In this document: positions 9,417-21,397 of the stretch, in pieces
Layout: each line of letters starts with the position of its first letter
Numbering within the stretch: position 1 is the stretch's first letter
From: Nitrospiria bacterium
Lineage (GTDB): Bacteria; Nitrospirota; Nitrospiria; SBBL01; JAADHI01
Direction: 5' to 3'
Length of the DNA stretch: 41,155 bases
NCBI GenBank assembly: GCA_945787655.1
Contig: CALZIJ010000011.1
Location: forward strand, 1,786-42,940
Notes under the pieces: model-generated
What the model was told of the DNA's origin: nothing
Databases searched by the model: none
The model's input: only the letters and a program-made list of their open reading frames with translations
Translations under genes and position numbers: made by a program

Positions 9417-10031
9417 TTAAAACCGAAGGAGGAGACCAGCAAGTGCAGAAACGCCTCCCAAATTTTCGAATTCAATGTCATCATCTCCGGGTCCGGTATC
9501 CAGTTCGACCATTTGAAAATCCGCAATAAACCGGCCTTCAATAAAAAATGAGACGGGATCGGAAAGCGGTACTTCCACACCCGCCAGTGCGACCACGCCA
9601 ATGCCTTGTCCCGTGTTACTCGTAATGATGATTCCAGGCCGTTGTTGCTGGACTCTTTTTGAATCGATTGTATTAAACGAAACGCCAAAACCGGCACCGA
9701 TATAAGGGGAAACTCCCGCAGGTTTTAAATAATATTTCACCAGCCCTCTGACAAAGAGCGACTGGATTTCAACATCGTCAACATCAAGGATCTCTCCTTC
9801 AAAATCACGGTACTCAATCTCTCCGCCAACGCGCATCTGATCATCTTTAAGAAACATGAACTGCAAGATTCCGGTGGAGCCTGTATTACCTTTAAACGGT
9901 GCAAATACTCCCCCGCCACCCGAAAGCGTCATGTTGATTTCAGGTGGTTCTGCCGCCGCATTGCTTGTGAAAACTGAAAAAAGTAGAAAACCGGAAACGA
10001 GGAAGTAGAAAGCCAAAGTACGCTTCTTCAT
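9417..10031 (-). CDS. Small outer-membrane beta-barrel protein
   Basis: This 204-residue protein has a clear signal peptide (MKKRTLAFYFLVSGFLLF, cleavage near NAAA-EPP). Alternating amphipathic strands follow, typical of 8-stranded OmpA/OmpX-like barrels, with a Gly-rich first strand (MTLSGGGGVFAPF), YYLKPAGVSPYIGAGFG in mid-barrel, and a final Phe. The start is backed by an AAGGAG site. It converges on the BamA-like gene with only 37 bases between. I see no enzyme motif; a structural or adhesion-type barrel is as far as the sequence goes. Confidence 0.75.
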   Translation of the reverse strand: MKKRTLAFYFLVSGFLLFSVFTSNAAAEPPEINMTLSGGGGVFAPFKGNTGSTGILQFMFLKDDQMRVGGEIEYRDFEGEILDVDDVEIQSLFVRGLVKYYLKPAGVSPYIGAGFGVSFNTIDSKRVQQQRPGIIITSNTGQGIGVVALAGVEVPLSDPVSFFIEGRFIADFQMVELDTGPGDDDIEFENLGGVSALAGLLLRF

Positions 10032-15038: not shown

Positions 15039-17456
15039 TTAGAATTGGCTTCTTTTCAAACGCAAGGCGTTCATAATGACCGAGACGGAACTGAAACTCA
15101 TCGCGGCTGCGGCGATCATCGGGGAGAGCAATAAACCAAAGACCGGATAAAGCAGCCCCGCCGCAATCGTCACACCGGATGCGTTGTAAACAAACGCGAA
15201 GAACAGGTTTTGGCGGATGTTTCTCATCGTCGCGCGGCTAAGACGGCGGGCGCGGACGATGCCGCGCAAATCGCCTTTTACCAAGGTCACGCCCGCGCTT
15301 TCCATGGCGACATCCGTACCCGTGCCCATGGCGATGCCCACCTGGGCCTGCGCCAGCGCCGGGGCGTCGTTGATGCCGTCGCCGGCCATCGCGACAATTT
15401 TGCCCTGTGCCTGAAGCTGTTTTACTACTTGGGCTTTTTGCTCCGGCAGAACCTCCGCCTGGATTTGATCGATATCCAGTTTTGAGGCAACCGCTTCTGC
15501 GGTTTTAAGGCTGTCGCCGGTCAACATCACGACTTGAATGCCTTCCCCATGCAGGTCACGAATGGCTTCAGGGGTCGTGTTTTTAATCGGATCGGCCACA
15601 CCGATCAATGCGGCGGCTTTTCCGTCGATCGCCAGCAGCATGACCGTTTGACCTTCCGCGCGTCCGGCGTCGGCCTTCTGTGGCCAATCACCTGGATCGA
15701 TTCCGAGGTGTTGGAACAATTTGAGATTGCCAAGCGCAACATTAGTGCCTGCCACGTCCCCGGTCACCCCCATCCCGGTGTGAGATTTAAAATGTTCCGT
15801 TTTCTCTAAAACGATTCCTTTTTCTTCGGCCCCACGCACGATGGCTTCCGCCAAGGGGTGTTCGCTCGCTTTTTCCAGCGTCGCGGCCAGTTTGAGGGCC
15901 TCCGTTTCATCTATCCCGGACACAGTGGTCACGGCAACCAGCTTTGGCTTGCCTTCCGTCAGCGTGCCTGTTTTATCTACGACAAGGGTGTCGATCTTCT
16001 CCATAATTTCAAGGGCTTCTGCATTTTTGATCAGGATGCCCATCGTCGCCCCTTTGCCTGTGCCAACCATGATGGACATGGGTGTCGCCAAGCCAAGCGC
16101 GCAGGGGCAGGCGATGATGAGCACGGCCACGGCATTGATCATCGCGTAAGCGAGGGCGGGTTCCGGTCCGAAAAAGGCCCAGACAAAAAAAGTGAGAATG
16201 GAAATCACAACCACAGCAGGTACGAAGTAACTGGCGACAATATCGACCAGTTTTTGAATCGGCGCGCGGGAGCGCTGCGCCTCCGCGACCATGTGCACGA
16301 TTTGGGACAAGAGCGTGTCCGCGCCCACTTTCTCCGCCTTCATCAGCAGGCTGCCTGTGCCGTTGACTGTGGCTCCAATCAGTTTAGTCTCGGCGGTTTT
16401 GGCAACGGGGACGGGTTCTCCGGTCACCATGGATTCATCTATGTTACTTTCTCCTTCGACGACTATTCCGTCCACGGGCACTTTTTCACCGGGGCGCACG
16501 CGCAGGAGGTCACCGGGCTGTACGTGTTCCAGGGGGATGTCTTCCTCTGTCCCGTTTTCCCGAACGATGCGGGCGGTTTTGGGGGCGAGGCCGAGTAAAA
16601 GTTGAATCGCCGCATTGGTTTGACTACGGGCGCGCAGTTCAAGCACCTGCCCCAAAAGCACCAAGGCGGTAATTACCGCGGCCGCCTCAAAATACACCGG
16701 GATGATGCCGTGCGCATCAACAAGGGCTTCCGGGAATATTCCGGGCGTCATGACGGCGATAAGGCTGTAAATCCATGCGACCGACACACCGAGTGCAATG
16801 AGCGTAAACATGTTCAGGCTCCGGTGGACGATGGACTTCCATCCGCGCACAAAAAATGGCCAGCCGCCCCACCACACGACGGGGGTGGAAAGCAGGAGTT
16901 CCATCCATTGACGGGTCTGGGGGGCAATGACGCCGGAAAATACTTCAGGCCACATCTCCGCGCCCATCGCGGTAAAAAAAACAGGAAAGGCCAGGAGGCC
17001 GCTGAGCCAAAAACGACGGCTCATGTCTTTGAGTTCGGTATTGTCGTTTTCTCCTTCTCTCACAGTGCGCGGCTCCAGTGCCATGCCGCACTTGGGGCAG
17101 TCTCCGGGATGATCCTGCACGATTTCAGGATGCATCGGACAGGTGTATTCGGTTTTTTTAGGGACGAGCGGGACACCCTTCGGCTCCAGCGCCATGCCGC
17201 ATTTCGGGCAATCACCCGGACCGGCTTGCTCGATCTCCGGGTGCATCGGGCAAGTATAGATAAGCGCTTTTTGACCCTGTTTTTCAACAGGCTTTTTTTT
17301 GATTTCTTCCTTCGGAGTCAGATATTTTTCGGGTGATGTTTTAAACGTGGACCAACAATGGGCACTGCAAAAATAGAAAGTTTCCCCGGCATGCTCATGT
17401 GTGCCCGCCGCGTCTTCTTTTTTGATTTCCATCCCGCAAACGACATCTTTGACCAT
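15039..17456 (-). CDS. Copper-type P1B ATPase with YHS and two heavy-metal-binding domains
   Basis: The ~805-residue inner-membrane pump has, in order, a YHS domain (residues 1-47, [16 protein letters not shown]), two YTCPMHPE...[12 protein letters not shown] metal-binding domains (about 67-92 and 103-128) and a P-type ATPase core. The core shows TGEP, the metal-site CPC in [18 protein letters not shown] with the phosphorylated Asp, SEHPLAEA and [13 protein letters not shown] plus these N-terminal domains indicates Cu(I) efflux, though Ag or other soft metals are possible. I chose the ATG at 17456, preceded by AAGGAGG at ideal spacing, over an ATG eight codons upstream. It is the last gene of the metal/redox operon. 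Confidence 0.92.
17071..17258 (-). repeat. Duplicated 77-base segment in the copper ATPase gene
   Basis: Positions 17071-17147 and 17182-17258 encode the two near-identical heavy-metal-binding domains, 111 bases apart start to start. Differences are mainly at third codon positions plus a few replacements (EQAGPGD against QDHPGD), the pattern of an older tandem domain duplication kept under selection. Confidence 0.8.
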
Positions 17457-17544
17457 GTTGCACCTCCTTACGGCGAGCACCGTTTAATGTGGGTGTCCAT
17501 CATCTTTGTGTTTCTTTTGTTTTCTGGAAGTTCATCGGACCCGC

Positions 17545-17958
17545 TCATCTCTGCTTCGTCCCCGTGCCTGTCGTCGCCATGCCCGTCATGCGGATGCCGT
17601 TTTTAATCGACCAAAACAATTCTGCTTCAGACAGGTGCTCGGCGTATTTCGCCAAATCCGGCGGAGCGGGGTTGAGGCCCTGCGCGGTCGGGGAATCTGT
17701 ACCCCCCGGCGGGGTGTGGCAAATGGCGCACATTTCACGATAACTGCGAAAGCCTTCTTCGATTTGTTGTGCTTCACCCAAGGGCGGAACGTCGATACTT
17801 GCCGCGCGTTTCGCGACGGAACCTCCGTGTGTGGTGTTTAAAACCCAGTGCACCAAGGCTGGATCTTCCCATGCGGTAGCGACATTAAATAAACCAGAAT
17901 AGATAAAAACGAGTCCGCCGATGATGCTGATGACGGCTGCGGCGCCCAAGGTTTTCAA
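17545..17958 (-). CDS. Monoheme cytochrome c, C-terminally truncated
   Basis: This 137-residue periplasmic protein has an N-terminal signal/anchor helix (residues 4-28) and one heme site, Cys77-Cys80-His81 (CAICH). A GIRMTGM motif follows (Met124 or Met127 as axial ligand). In relatives this motif is followed by a final helix of about 30 residues and often a His-rich tail. Here the frame runs through ATTGTGTKQR and stops. A different frame reads HPHDGHGDDRHGDEAE through the same bases and on to a stop at 17468, as if the tail had been joined out of frame after a deletion. The protein may still fold, since both heme ligands remain, but it lacks its last helix. It lies between the MerR-type regulator and the copper ATPase. 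Confidence 0.75.
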   Translation of the reverse strand: MKTLGAAAVISIIGGLVFIYSGLFNVATAWEDPALVHWVLNTTHGGSVAKRAASIDVPPLGEAQQIEEGFRSYREMCAICHTPPGGTDSPTAQGLNPAPPDLAKYAEHLSEAELFWSIKNGIRMTGMATTGTGTKQR

Positions 17959-18025
17959 AGCGGTGTCCTCTTGTGATGGTTTTATTCTAAAACATGTGAG
18001 TTACTCATGGGTCAAGCGTTTTTTT

Positions 18026-18433
18026 TTAGAGGTCGTCCATGGCCTCAATAAGGTGGCAGACGGAGTGGCCGTCGGGGGTGCCGTCGGGCATCTCTTTCCA
18101 TTGGGCGAGTGCTTTTTCCATTCGGATTTGAAGCTCTGCTAATTGGTCCAGTTTTCTCCGGTTTTCTGTGATGTGGCGGGCAATGAGATCCCGCACCATT
18201 GGGCAGGGCGAATCGTGGCTCTGGGCGTGATTCAGGATTTGACCAATTTCAGTGAGGGTAAATCCTAAGCCTTTTGCCCGCAGGATGAACTTGAGTCGTT
18301 TTGCGTGTTCGATTGAAAAATGCCGGTATCCGTTATTCTGGTCCCGGCGCGGGTTTAAAAGGCCGATGCGGGTATAATACCGGATGATTTCCGGTGAAAC
18401 TTTGGCGCGTTTGGAGAGTTGTGTAACGGTCAT
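18026..18433 (-). CDS. MerR-family metal-responsive regulator
   Basis: The 135-residue regulator starts at the ATG at 18433, with GAGG upstream (an open frame extends 33 codons further). It has the MerR winged helix (MTVTQLSKRAKVSPEIIRYY, GLLNPRRDQNNGYRHFS), a dimerisation helix, and Cys residues in SPCPMVRDLI and HSVCHLIEAM, the positions used by ZntR/CadR/PbrR-type metal sensors. It lacks the CueR-type paired-Cys loop, so the inducer may not be copper. It sits mid-operon, between the diheme and monoheme cytochrome genes, and would control the operon including the ATPase. Confidence 0.88.
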   Translation of the reverse strand: MTVTQLSKRAKVSPEIIRYYTRIGLLNPRRDQNNGYRHFSIEHAKRLKFILRAKGLGFTLTEIGQILNHAQSHDSPCPMVRDLIARHITENRRKLDQLAELQIRMEKALAQWKEMPDGTPDGHSVCHLIEAMDDL

Positions 18434-18461: not shown

Positions 18462-19319
18462 CTAGCGTCCCTGTAGTGAAAGAATGAAATGTACCAAGTC
18501 CCAGGCGCTGTCTTCTTCTCCTCTAAACGCATCGTTATATCCCGGCATGGGCGTGCCGTCGAGTCCGGTCATAATCGTGCGATAGATGTCTTCGTGGCGG
18601 GTGCCATTGCCAAAGGTTTCCTGCCGGGTCAGGTCGACCGGGTGGATCAAGATTTTGCGTTCGTCTTTCAAATCAGTTCTCCCGCCTTTCCCGTCCGCGC
18701 CGTGACATTCGTTGCACTTCATGATGTTGTATAAAATTCCGCCCCGCCAGGCGCTTTTGGCGGAATAGGTATAGGGGCCGACGTGTTTTACGTATTTGAT
18801 GGTTGTACTGGTGGGGAGTTCTTCCCGAATAAATGCTTTGGCGATATAGGATGCTACGGCATGAATCCCGTCTTCACCCAGATTGCGAAAGGAGGGCATG
18901 TAGCCTGGAATGCCTTCACGAATGGTGCGCATGAGGTCTTTGAGCATGGGCAGCTCACCCGATTCCGTTGAGCGGAATTTAAAAACCCCCGAAGTAAAAC
19001 GATTGGGCCGCGGATGGGAATAGGGCCCGATAAAGCGGGAAGCGGGCCCGTCGCCTTCGCCATTTTTACCGTGACATAAAAAGCAGCTCATTTTGTAAAT
19101 CATTTCACCACGCATGACGGCCATGTCATCGATGGGCTTGACCACTTCTCCATTGACGGGTGTTTCCATGAGTGGTTTTTTTTCACTGGGCGACGAACCG
19201 TGCTCTTCCATTGTGGAATGATCCATTTCTTGGGTTCGCCCATCAGTGGTCATGAATATACTGGCGGTAAGGATCAAGGCCAGACTGTAATCTATTTTTT
19301 TACTTTTAAAATTCATCAT
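18462..19319 (-). CDS. Diheme cytochrome c
   Basis: The protein of about 285 residues is exported (hydrophobic segment near residues 13-25) and has two class I cytochrome c domains. Numbered from a TTG one codon upstream of the ATG used here, the hemes are at Cys80-Cys83-His84 (CFLCH) and Cys203-Cys206-His207 (CNECH), with likely axial Met142 (GIPGYMPSF) and Met259 (DGTPMPGY). A short acidic His/Met linker (MDHSTMEEHG) follows the signal. The ATG at 19319 has AAAGGA five bases upstream. It is a periplasmic electron carrier, next to the cytochrome-porin gene, and could take electrons from it. Confidence 0.88.
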   Translation of the reverse strand: MMNFKSKKIDYSLALILTASIFMTTDGRTQEMDHSTMEEHGSSPSEKKPLMETPVNGEVVKPIDDMAVMRGEMIYKMSCFLCHGKNGEGDGPASRFIGPYSHPRPNRFTSGVFKFRSTESGELPMLKDLMRTIREGIPGYMPSFRNLGEDGIHAVASYIAKAFIREELPTSTTIKYVKHVGPYTYSAKSAWRGGILYNIMKCNECHGADGKGGRTDLKDERKILIHPVDLTRQETFGNGTRHEDIYRTIMTGLDGTPMPGYNDAFRGEEDSAWDLVHFILSLQGR

Positions 19320-19369
19320 CAATTCCTTTCACATGATGGATTTTGGTTGGGTGATGTCTGTGGCGGCCG

Positions 19370-20788
19370 CTAAAAATCAAAGTCGATTCCTGCGGCGATC
19401 AAGTGGCGGTAATTTTGTAAGGGGTTTCGGCTGACACGCCCTACGTTGATGCTGTCTTTCAGAAACAGGGCAAAATTGTCACGAAAATACCTGCGAAGCT
19501 GGAGGGTAATGACCCTCCCATCGGCCTTTTCATGACGGTATCCGCCAGCGTCCATGTGGTCATAACGAAGTGATATCAAATCGTAATCCGTCAGGAGAAA
19601 ATCGCCCTCAATGGTCAACCCCATTGCCGAATCATCAAATTGGGCCGCATCCGATGCGGATAGCCCGCTGAGGGTGTCCCAGATGATCGCGCCGTAAATA
19701 TCGAGCAATTTATACTTGATATTGCCTGCGAAGCCGTATCGAAACCAGTCAACCAATTGTGTCCCGACTCGGGCCGTATCGTTTCCCCAATTGACGAGGC
19801 CGGATACGCTGCCAGAAAAATAATGGGTTCCGCCAAAATTGATCCGCGCCATGAGATAAGGGTCTTTTTTTTCATTGACGTCGGAGCCGTTGGTTAAAAT
19901 GCCTTGCATCAGTCCTGCTTGTAGCATCAAGCCTCCGATCATGGCGTGGGAGTCAATTCCATAACTGCCGGTGGTGTTGTAAAGCACGGCTTTTGTGACT
20001 TCGATGGCTTTGCCTTCACCGGTCTGCACACCAAAAAATTTGGCGGAAAAGGCGTAGGGGCTGAGCGTAAATCGTTGCATTTGACCGGATTCCCGATTGA
20101 CCTGACCGGGGCTGTCCAGGATGAGTTGTCGATTGCTCGAATAGGAAAAATTGGTGGAAGGATCAATTTTTCCAACCATGATCATTGGGCCCATGACCAT
20201 GGGGCCTTTCATTTTTTTATGAGAAAATTCGGAGTCCGATGGGCGGAGATTAAACATGAGAAAAAATTCCTTTCCCAGCCCAAATTCTGATGTTTCTTCA
20301 AAATGACCATGATTGTGACCATCGGAAGCCAGCCCCGAAATCCTCCGGCTTTCGTGACTGAGGTTAAAAAAATAACTGATGTTGTTCGTAAAACTTCCGG
20401 CAAAATACAGCTCGATTTCCCTGGGAAAGGCGATATTGCTTTCAGGGGGTTTTCCACCAGACACGCTCTCGGCAATATTCCCGGTTGTTCTCATGGCAAA
20501 GATGTTCATTAATTCTGTTTCAGAGTGAATCCGGCCGATCTGCCTTTTCTTCCTCAATTCACCTTCTTGTGTTTGCGGGATTTGGTAGCCGGCCATATGA
20601 AAGGCTTCACCGAAAGCGTTCAGCCGGGGCGGTTTTGTATGGCAAGAAGTGCAGGACATATCATATTTCCGTGCAAAGGCCGGAATGGCTTCCACCGAGG
20701 CGGGTTGAAATACCGGGATGATAAAGCCCGTCATTATGAAAAAAATAAGGTGAATGGTGAGGGTGTTGACCTTTAGACCATTTTGCAT
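19370..20788 (-). CDS. Outer-membrane cytochrome-porin fusion (Cyc2-like layout)
   Basis: This 472-residue protein has a signal peptide (residues 5-34, EA-IPAF) and then a single heme site at Cys46-Cys49-His50 in AFARKYDMSCTSCHTKPPRL, followed by LNAFGEAFHMAGY. About 400 residues of beta-barrel sequence follow, ending in IDFDF. This order, one N-terminal heme in front of a porin-size barrel, is that of Cyc2, the iron-oxidising fused cytochrome-porin, and the heme context (AxPxFAR...CxxCH...FGxxF) is similar. Related families of unknown role share that N-terminus, so the function is a hypothesis: moving electrons from an extracellular donor to periplasmic cytochromes. The diheme cytochrome gene follows directly. 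Confidence 0.7.
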   Translation of the reverse strand: MQNGLKVNTLTIHLIFFIMTGFIIPVFQPASVEAIPAFARKYDMSCTSCHTKPPRLNAFGEAFHMAGYQIPQTQEGELRKKRQIGRIHSETELMNIFAMRTTGNIAESVSGGKPPESNIAFPREIELYFAGSFTNNISYFFNLSHESRRISGLASDGHNHGHFEETSEFGLGKEFFLMFNLRPSDSEFSHKKMKGPMVMGPMIMVGKIDPSTNFSYSSNRQLILDSPGQVNRESGQMQRFTLSPYAFSAKFFGVQTGEGKAIEVTKAVLYNTTGSYGIDSHAMIGGLMLQAGLMQGILTNGSDVNEKKDPYLMARINFGGTHYFSGSVSGLVNWGNDTARVGTQLVDWFRYGFAGNIKYKLLDIYGAIIWDTLSGLSASDAAQFDDSAMGLTIEGDFLLTDYDLISLRYDHMDAGGYRHEKADGRVITLQLRRYFRDNFALFLKDSINVGRVSRNPLQNYRHLIAAGIDFDF

Positions 20789-20862: not shown

Positions 20863-21219
20863 TCAAATTATCAGGACGGCATGAAGCTGATATAGCTGCG
20901 GCGGATTCTCGCGGCGCCGTTCTTTCCTGGAAAAAAGTGCGGTCGGTGCCGGAATCCGGAATGGATGGAATAATAATAGAAGCGGGATGAGCGTCAGGCT
21001 CATTGAGGAAAAAGTTCCCCCGGTGGTATCGGGGGAGGACACATTTTTAGAGATCAGCGTGCTGCAGGTATTGAGTGTGCAGGGGGTAACGGTGTTGTGG
21101 CTGTTTTCTTCATGCGCGTTAGCATGTTGGATATTGCCCACGCTGCACAAAGAAAAGGCCGTTACGAAAATAACAAGCCAGAAAAGAATCGATTGTAATG
21201 TGGATTGTGAAATCTTCAT
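20863..21219 (-). CDS. Small envelope protein of unknown function
   Basis: I do not recognise this 118-residue protein. It has a hydrophobic N-terminal helix (residues 10-33) that could be a signal peptide, then HANAHEENSHN and a CTLNTCSTLIS stretch with two cysteines. A second hydrophobic segment (residues 72-86) and a basic end with FSRKERRREN follow. The layout is that of small Cys/His-bearing membrane proteins often found beside metal-resistance genes, but no family can be named. It is the first gene of the metal/redox operon, with an AAAGG ribosome site. I found no convincing promoter in the bases upstream. Confidence 0.55.
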   Translation of the reverse strand: MKISQSTLQSILFWLVIFVTAFSLCSVGNIQHANAHEENSHNTVTPCTLNTCSTLISKNVSSPDTTGGTFSSMSLTLIPLLLLFHPFRIPAPTALFSRKERRRENPPQLYQLHAVLII

Positions 21220-21397
21220 GTTTACCTTTTTAGTTTAATCGGCAGGCTCTGTCAAGAGGGGAGCACACTCCTGGGTTTTTCTCCAAGGTTTTAAAGATAA
21301 TGAAAAAGGGCCTGTTATTGGTTTGTGTCCGCAGCATCTCACCGGGGCCGGACAATTTAAGAGGCTTCAGACGAGTTGTTGTTCTTTACTTATTTAA

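Follow-up and report, generated by a model that had tools for sequence, protein, structure and literature searches.

Gene organization of the cyc2L locus

The window analysed here is a stretch of 41,155 nucleotides from a draft genome of a Nitrospiria bacterium (contig CALZIJ010000011.1). At its centre, on the reverse strand, lies a gene for a predicted Cyc2-like cytochrome-porin, designated cyc2L (Table 1). The genes that follow it encode a diheme cytochrome, a MerR-family regulator, a monoheme cytochrome and a copper-type P1B ATPase (copA). This is the order read in the first-pass annotation of the sequence and it was confirmed with two corrections: the copy of the monoheme cytochrome gene is truncated, and the MerR operator is situated downstream of cyc2L. 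Relatives of this cytochrome extend about 75 aa more and finish in a His/Asp-rich tail; since the open reading frame ends early by comparison, the copy may be decayed or frameshifted. The ATPase scored 594.6 bits against the TIGR01511 model (cut-off 397) and contains the CPC, YN and MxxSS motifs by which Cu(I) pumps of the P1B-1 type are recognised. Adjoining copA, between positions 9417 and 14869 of the same strand, are genes for an OprB-type porin, a ZnuA-like binding protein, NikR and an ABC-3 transporter, which we treat as a metal-uptake cluster in its own right. Genes of the reductive TCA type, among them that for ATP-citrate lyase, are found in the same window and support the earlier assumption that the organism is an autotroph.

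Table 1. Coordinates of genes and sequence elements at the cyc2L locus (positions within the window).
Feature	Position	Strand	Basis
Cu(I)-type P1B ATPase (copA), YHS and two HMBD domains; real start probably 17456	15039..17480	-	TIGR01511, motifs
Membrane-anchored monoheme cytochrome c, shorter than relatives	17545..17958	-	Pfam, relatives
MerR-type operator-promoter, TTGACC-N20-TAGAAT, imperfect dyad, before cytochrome-copA unit	17984..18015	-	Conserved in relatives
MerR-family regulator, Cys77, C-terminal HSVC; real start probably 18433	18026..18433	-	Pfam/NCBIfam, comparison
Diheme c-type cytochrome, two CXXCH, two PF13442 domains, MDHSTM-type N-terminus	18462..19322	-	Pfam, locus comparison
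cyc2L, predicted Cyc2-like cytochrome-porin, 472 aa, one heme c site, 16-strand barrel	19370..20788	-	Motif, profile, model, tree
Met/His-rich segment of cyc2L, residues 190-204, HKKMKGPMVMGPMIM, strand 4-5 connection and start of strand 5	20177..20221	-	Alignment
Small conserved membrane or secreted protein, 118 aa, CxxxxC, C-terminal LY[QR]LxxxxLI	20863..21219	-	Homologs before cyc2L
Predicted sigma-70-type promoter of small gene-cyc2L-diheme unit, TTGACA-N17-TAAAAA, no MerR dyad	21227..21255	-	Relatives

Anatomy of the cyc2L product

The published signature of Cyc2, written AXPXFAR[QK][TY]..CXXCH..PXL, is part of a definition that also comprises a single CXXCH, a minimum length of 365 aa, a signal peptide and a porin of 16 strands (PMC8406198). 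The N-terminal heme region of the cyc2L product reads AIPAFARKYDMSCTSCHTKPPRLNAFGEAF and holds the only CXXCH of the protein. Ahead of this site the sequence AIPAFARKYDMSCTSCH matches AXPXFAR[QK][TY], and PXL follows it within the stretch CHTKPPRL. The protein exceeds the minimal length by more than 100 residues and begins with what looks by eye like a hydrophobic leader, with a helix predicted at residues 9-27. AlphaFold2, supplied with a 19-row alignment, returned a porin of 16 strands (pTM 0.75) in a model that includes no heme and has low confidence at the N-terminus. A Foldseek search with this model retrieved OmpF/OmpC-type porins (E about 1e-11), and the Cyc2 protein of Sideroxydans, modelled identically, showed the same fold class. 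The heme would be located in the barrel or at its periplasmic mouth. No Pfam or NCBIfam model covers cyc2L, a sequence search of the PDB found no solved relative of the whole protein and a plasmid search for homologs gave no match.

Relationship to Cyc2

A hidden Markov model of Cyc2 Cluster 1 was built from 67 complete Gallionellaceae-type proteins, whose genes were taken from named genomes by means of a degenerate DNA pattern. The cyc2L product gave a significant match to this model, limited to residues 20-143 (40.9 bits; E 3e-13, calculated for a small test set). Its barrel alone gave an E value of 0.74; barrels of the Nitrospiraceae-type orthologs gave values down to 3e-7. Aligning the profile of the cyc2L family with that of Cluster 1 by hhalign yielded an E value of 5e-18 across 130 columns. 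Thus homology to Cyc2 proper, which the first-pass annotation had left unproven, holds against Cluster 1 for the heme domain and the first strands and does not extend to the rest of the barrel. The layout that it had proposed, a single N-terminal heme in front of a porin barrel, is supported by the motif, profile, profile-profile and fold tests alike. Because of this anatomy and of the heme-domain homology, we count cyc2L, on the strength of its sequence and model, among the predicted Cyc2-like cytochrome-porins.

A maximum-likelihood tree was calculated from 57 proteins, in which Cluster 1 represents the named Cyc2 clusters. The window protein fell inside a Nitrospirota clade of 14 members (100/100), which was joined to 13 Nitrospiraceae-type orthologs (100/100). 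Cluster 1 formed one side of a 100/100 branch and cyc2L lay on the other side, far away. The long branches of this tree make the position of the other motif proteins unsure. Membership of cyc2L in Cluster 1 is ruled out by the tree position together with the barrel-only score; the idea of placing the protein among known Cyc2 clades was realised for Cluster 1, with cyc2L outside it. For Cluster 3, function was rated as most uncertain by the authors who defined the clusters (PMC8406198). Within the class, orthologs about 53-76% identical to the window protein were found in 13 further genomes. In a sample of 246 genomes from the phylum, full-length orthologs were also found in a large family (f6), which appears to correspond to the Nitrospiraceae, and once in another class.

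The diheme partner and the small upstream gene

At each of the 19 loci with both genes readable, the diheme cytochrome gene lies next to cyc2L, directly downstream. Because of this adjacency, and because orthologs exist in 13 other genomes, the cyc2L reading frame cannot be attributed to chance. The pairing was not seen at a more distant motif protein of genome G006. The partner is kept into Nitrospiraceae-type genomes, at 42% identity. Most of the window-clade partners have a Met/His-rich N-terminus (MDHSTM and similar sequences), absent in the Nitrospiraceae-type ones. The nearest solved relative is chain B of PDB entry 6h5l (E 5e-27).

In most of the nearer relatives of the window, cyc2L is preceded by a homolog of the small gene (G001, G002, G003, G019 and G034 and, by eye, G005 and G007). 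No confident Pfam or NCBIfam family was found for the 118-aa protein. At three Nitrospiraceae-type loci (L045, L046 and L049) the cyc2L-diheme pair lies beside a PAS/sCache-type sensor kinase and carboxypeptidase-regulatory or cupredoxin-like proteins. A diverged paralog of the pair (G001b) is present at a further locus of G001 (L034, contig C40); this copy is without the Met/His-rich segment and has no copper pump nearby.

Predicted separate promoters for the cyc2L and copA units

The first-pass annotation had envisaged a single metal-regulated operon, made only when metal is sensed. The promoter regions do not bear this out. A MerR-type operator-promoter precedes the cytochrome-copA unit and recurs in G001, G003 and G007 at the corresponding place; shuffled sequence gave no comparable match. 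No second site was found in the genome with up to 3 mismatches, and no MerR operator with a 19-20 bp spacer and dyad was found before cyc2L, the only site lying downstream of that gene. The unit formed by the small gene, cyc2L and the diheme gene appears to have an ordinary promoter of its own, and similar TTGACA boxes occur in the same place in the relatives. MerR control of cyc2L was therefore rejected; from the position of the operator and the separate cyc2L promoter, such control most likely falls on the cytochrome-copA unit. Judging by the spacing, transcription from cyc2L is likely to read through into merR.

Copper genes in the vicinity of cyc2L

In 7 of the 14 window-clade genomes P1B ATPases, mostly of the Cu type, are encoded at most 6 kb away from cyc2L, against an expected 0.15 (p about 4e-11). 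Counted by family, such proximity occurs in four of six (p about 2e-6); these statistics presuppose that genes are placed at random and were calculated with rounded genome sizes. The TIGR01511 cut-off is passed by the pumps adjacent to cyc2L in the window and in G007, G019, G036 and G012, and the window's ATPase shares 71-81% identity with those of G001 and G003. All six pumps examined have CPC and YN; five also have MxxSS, and the sequence of the sixth is interrupted by the end of its locus. The pumps of G036 and G012 share no more than about 42-43% identity with that of the window, so pump and cyc2L seem to have become neighbours on more than one occasion. Other copper or metal genes near cyc2L include CusB/CusA in G001, a heavy-metal RND pump in G005 and, in G003, a CopZ-type Fe-S metallochaperone accompanied by another MerR.

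The alignment also revealed a Met/His-rich segment in the connection between strands 4 and 5, which by the usual topology of porins should face the periplasm. Met and His residues number 6-10 per 28 aa in 13 of the 14 window-clade proteins, 0-2 in the Nitrospiraceae-type orthologs and 2 in the paralog G001b. Shuffling within the window protein gave a p of about 0.1, and the notion that the cluster is exceptional in this protein alone was rejected; for this reason the argument is drawn from positional conservation across the clade.

The multicopper oxidase domains PF07732 and PF07731 were not found in the genome that carries the window (a 98% complete draft). Most other genomes of the clade do have multicopper-oxidase-like domains, and the pair is thus no mere substitute for such enzymes. 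Searches of the same draft for a COX1 match or heme-copper oxidase were negative and no decaheme MtrA-type protein scored above its cut-off; three bd-like proteins were found. As the assembly is a draft, these negatives fall short of demonstrating absence. Searches of an open-licence literature collection listed no title or abstract that reports Cyc2 together with copper operons.

Discussion

The cyc2L product and its diheme partner probably constitute an outer-membrane electron conduit of the Cyc2 type. An electron-uptake conduit for a metal donor had been suggested from the outset; the conduit is plausible and is strengthened by the invariant diheme partner, and the neighbourhood suggests copper handling over an Fe or Mn energy donor. 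Because cyc2L is so often found among copper-export genes, the donor may be copper rather than iron; we hold this to be close to an even chance, though on the lower side of it. The same guarded standing applies to the proposal that a Cyc2-type conduit of the outer membrane was recruited to copper in this lineage. Under this proposal, a soluble metal ion would reach the heme through the pore, or would be bound at the Met/His-rich segment, and the heme would take single electrons from it. The next carrier would be the diheme cytochrome, from which the electrons would reach a bd-like oxidase or some other acceptor. For the window clade, the most likely metal would be Cu(I), oxidised to the less toxic Cu(II) beside a CopA-type pump that ejects cytoplasmic Cu(I), and the pair would be a heme-based stand-in for the cuprous oxidases PcoA and CueO. 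Direct transfer to O2 would not be required, and respiration could in principle make use of the electrons. Carried to this point, the scheme describes a heme-based cuprous oxidase conduit that would act on Cu(I) at the outer membrane, with no direct need for O2, and might supply respiration, which would make copper detoxification and electron uptake a single process; we put this forward tentatively and consider it rather unlikely in its full form. Besides the neighbouring genes, copper is favoured by the Met/His-rich segments of cyc2L and of most diheme partners in the clade, and by the failure to find multicopper oxidase domains in the genome of the window. Several observations count against copper. 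The cyc2L gene is outside MerR operator control, half of the clade loci are without a P1B pump within 6 kb, and the Nitrospiraceae-type pairs adjoin other kinds of genes instead, namely those for sensor kinases and carboxypeptidase-regulatory or cupredoxin-like proteins. In addition, MerR proteins that sense divalent metals have Cys at position 77 and those that sense Cu(I) have Ser; the window regulator has Cys.

Other readings were weighed against a copper-tuned conduit. The pair could serve energy metabolism by taking up electrons from Fe(II) or Mn(II), as in Cyc2 proper, with Fe(II) losing its electron at the heme, the diheme protein acting like Cyc1, electrons flowing to a bd-like oxidase and, by reverse electron flow, to the reductive TCA cycle, and the copper genes being mere neighbours. 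The signature and fold of cyc2L agree with this, as do the reductive-TCA-type genes of the window, the apparently unregulated promoter of the cyc2L unit and a gene order like that of the rus operon, cyc2-cyc1 (PMC10654088). Moreover, Cyc2 homologs have been proposed for Mn oxidation in the Manganitrophaceae and noted in most Troglogloeales (PMC9040806). We nevertheless regard it as doubtful: cyc2L is far from Cluster 1 in the tree, the copper-pump neighbours exceed chance in four families, the Met/His-rich segment is specific to the window clade, and orthologs also occur in Nitrospiraceae-type genomes, several of which presumably belong to nitrite oxidisers.

It is improbable, in our estimation, that the protein is a porin that lets copper or another cation in or out, its heme being a structural plug or redox gate rather than part of a conduit. 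The general porin fold, the Met/His-rich segment and the OprB porin with the ZnuA/NikR/ABC metal-uptake cluster just downstream of copA would suit such a function, but the invariant diheme partner would be needless for a pure channel. Electrons could also run the other way, with the pair discharging them onto a metal ion or mineral outside the cell, either for respiration or to dispose of a surplus. The direction of flow cannot be told from the anatomy, and no heme-copper oxidase was found in the genome; yet characterised Cyc2 proteins work inward (PMC8406198) and the three bd-like proteins could be terminal oxidases, and we judge outward flow to be very unlikely.

A Cyc2-type conduit tuned to copper would bear on how such genes are read. 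Cyc2-like genes are widely taken as markers of iron oxidation, and most Cyc2 homologs are untested (PMC8406198). A clade that points to copper, through both its neighbours and an added Met/His segment, would caution against this shortcut in the Nitrospirota and offer a concrete alternative substrate. If true, a heme-based Cu(I) oxidase would fill a gap for organisms without multicopper oxidases.

Comparison with known systems

With the Cyc2 proteins of Clusters 1-3 (Mariprofundus PV-1, Acidithiobacillus and Cyt572 of Leptospirillum) cyc2L shares the leader, the single N-terminal heme c, the AXPXFAR[QK][TY] and PXL motifs, a length of more than 365 aa and the 16-strand porin. It differs from them in forming a separate Nitrospirota clade in the tree, where Cluster 1 was the reference, in a barrel that the Cluster 1 profile does not recognise, in the clade-specific Met/His-rich strand 4-5 connection and in having copper genes rather than an oxidase operon as neighbours. 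The diheme partner is a relative of the Kustc0458-type cytochrome (PDB 6h5l chain B), whose own partner we take to be an HAO-like protein; here it is paired with a cytochrome-porin. In Acidithiobacillus, cyc2 is likewise followed by a gene for a diheme cytochrome, Cyc1. The Cyc2 homologs of Ca. Manganitrophaceae and other Troglogloeales are also fused monoheme cytochrome-porins, probably from the same order (PMC9040806), whereas the motif proteins of family f5, which seems to represent the Manganitrophaceae, fall outside the window clade in the tree. No sequence relation was found to PcoA/PcoB (CopA/CopB) or CueO, and heme cytochromes take the place of the multicopper oxidase. The arrangement is nonetheless alike: an outer-membrane barrel and a periplasmic redox protein beside copper-export genes, with Met/His-rich segments. 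For PcoAB itself, a role as a pair of porin and oxidase that links copper resistance with the oxidation of Fe(II) has been discussed (PMC5566968).
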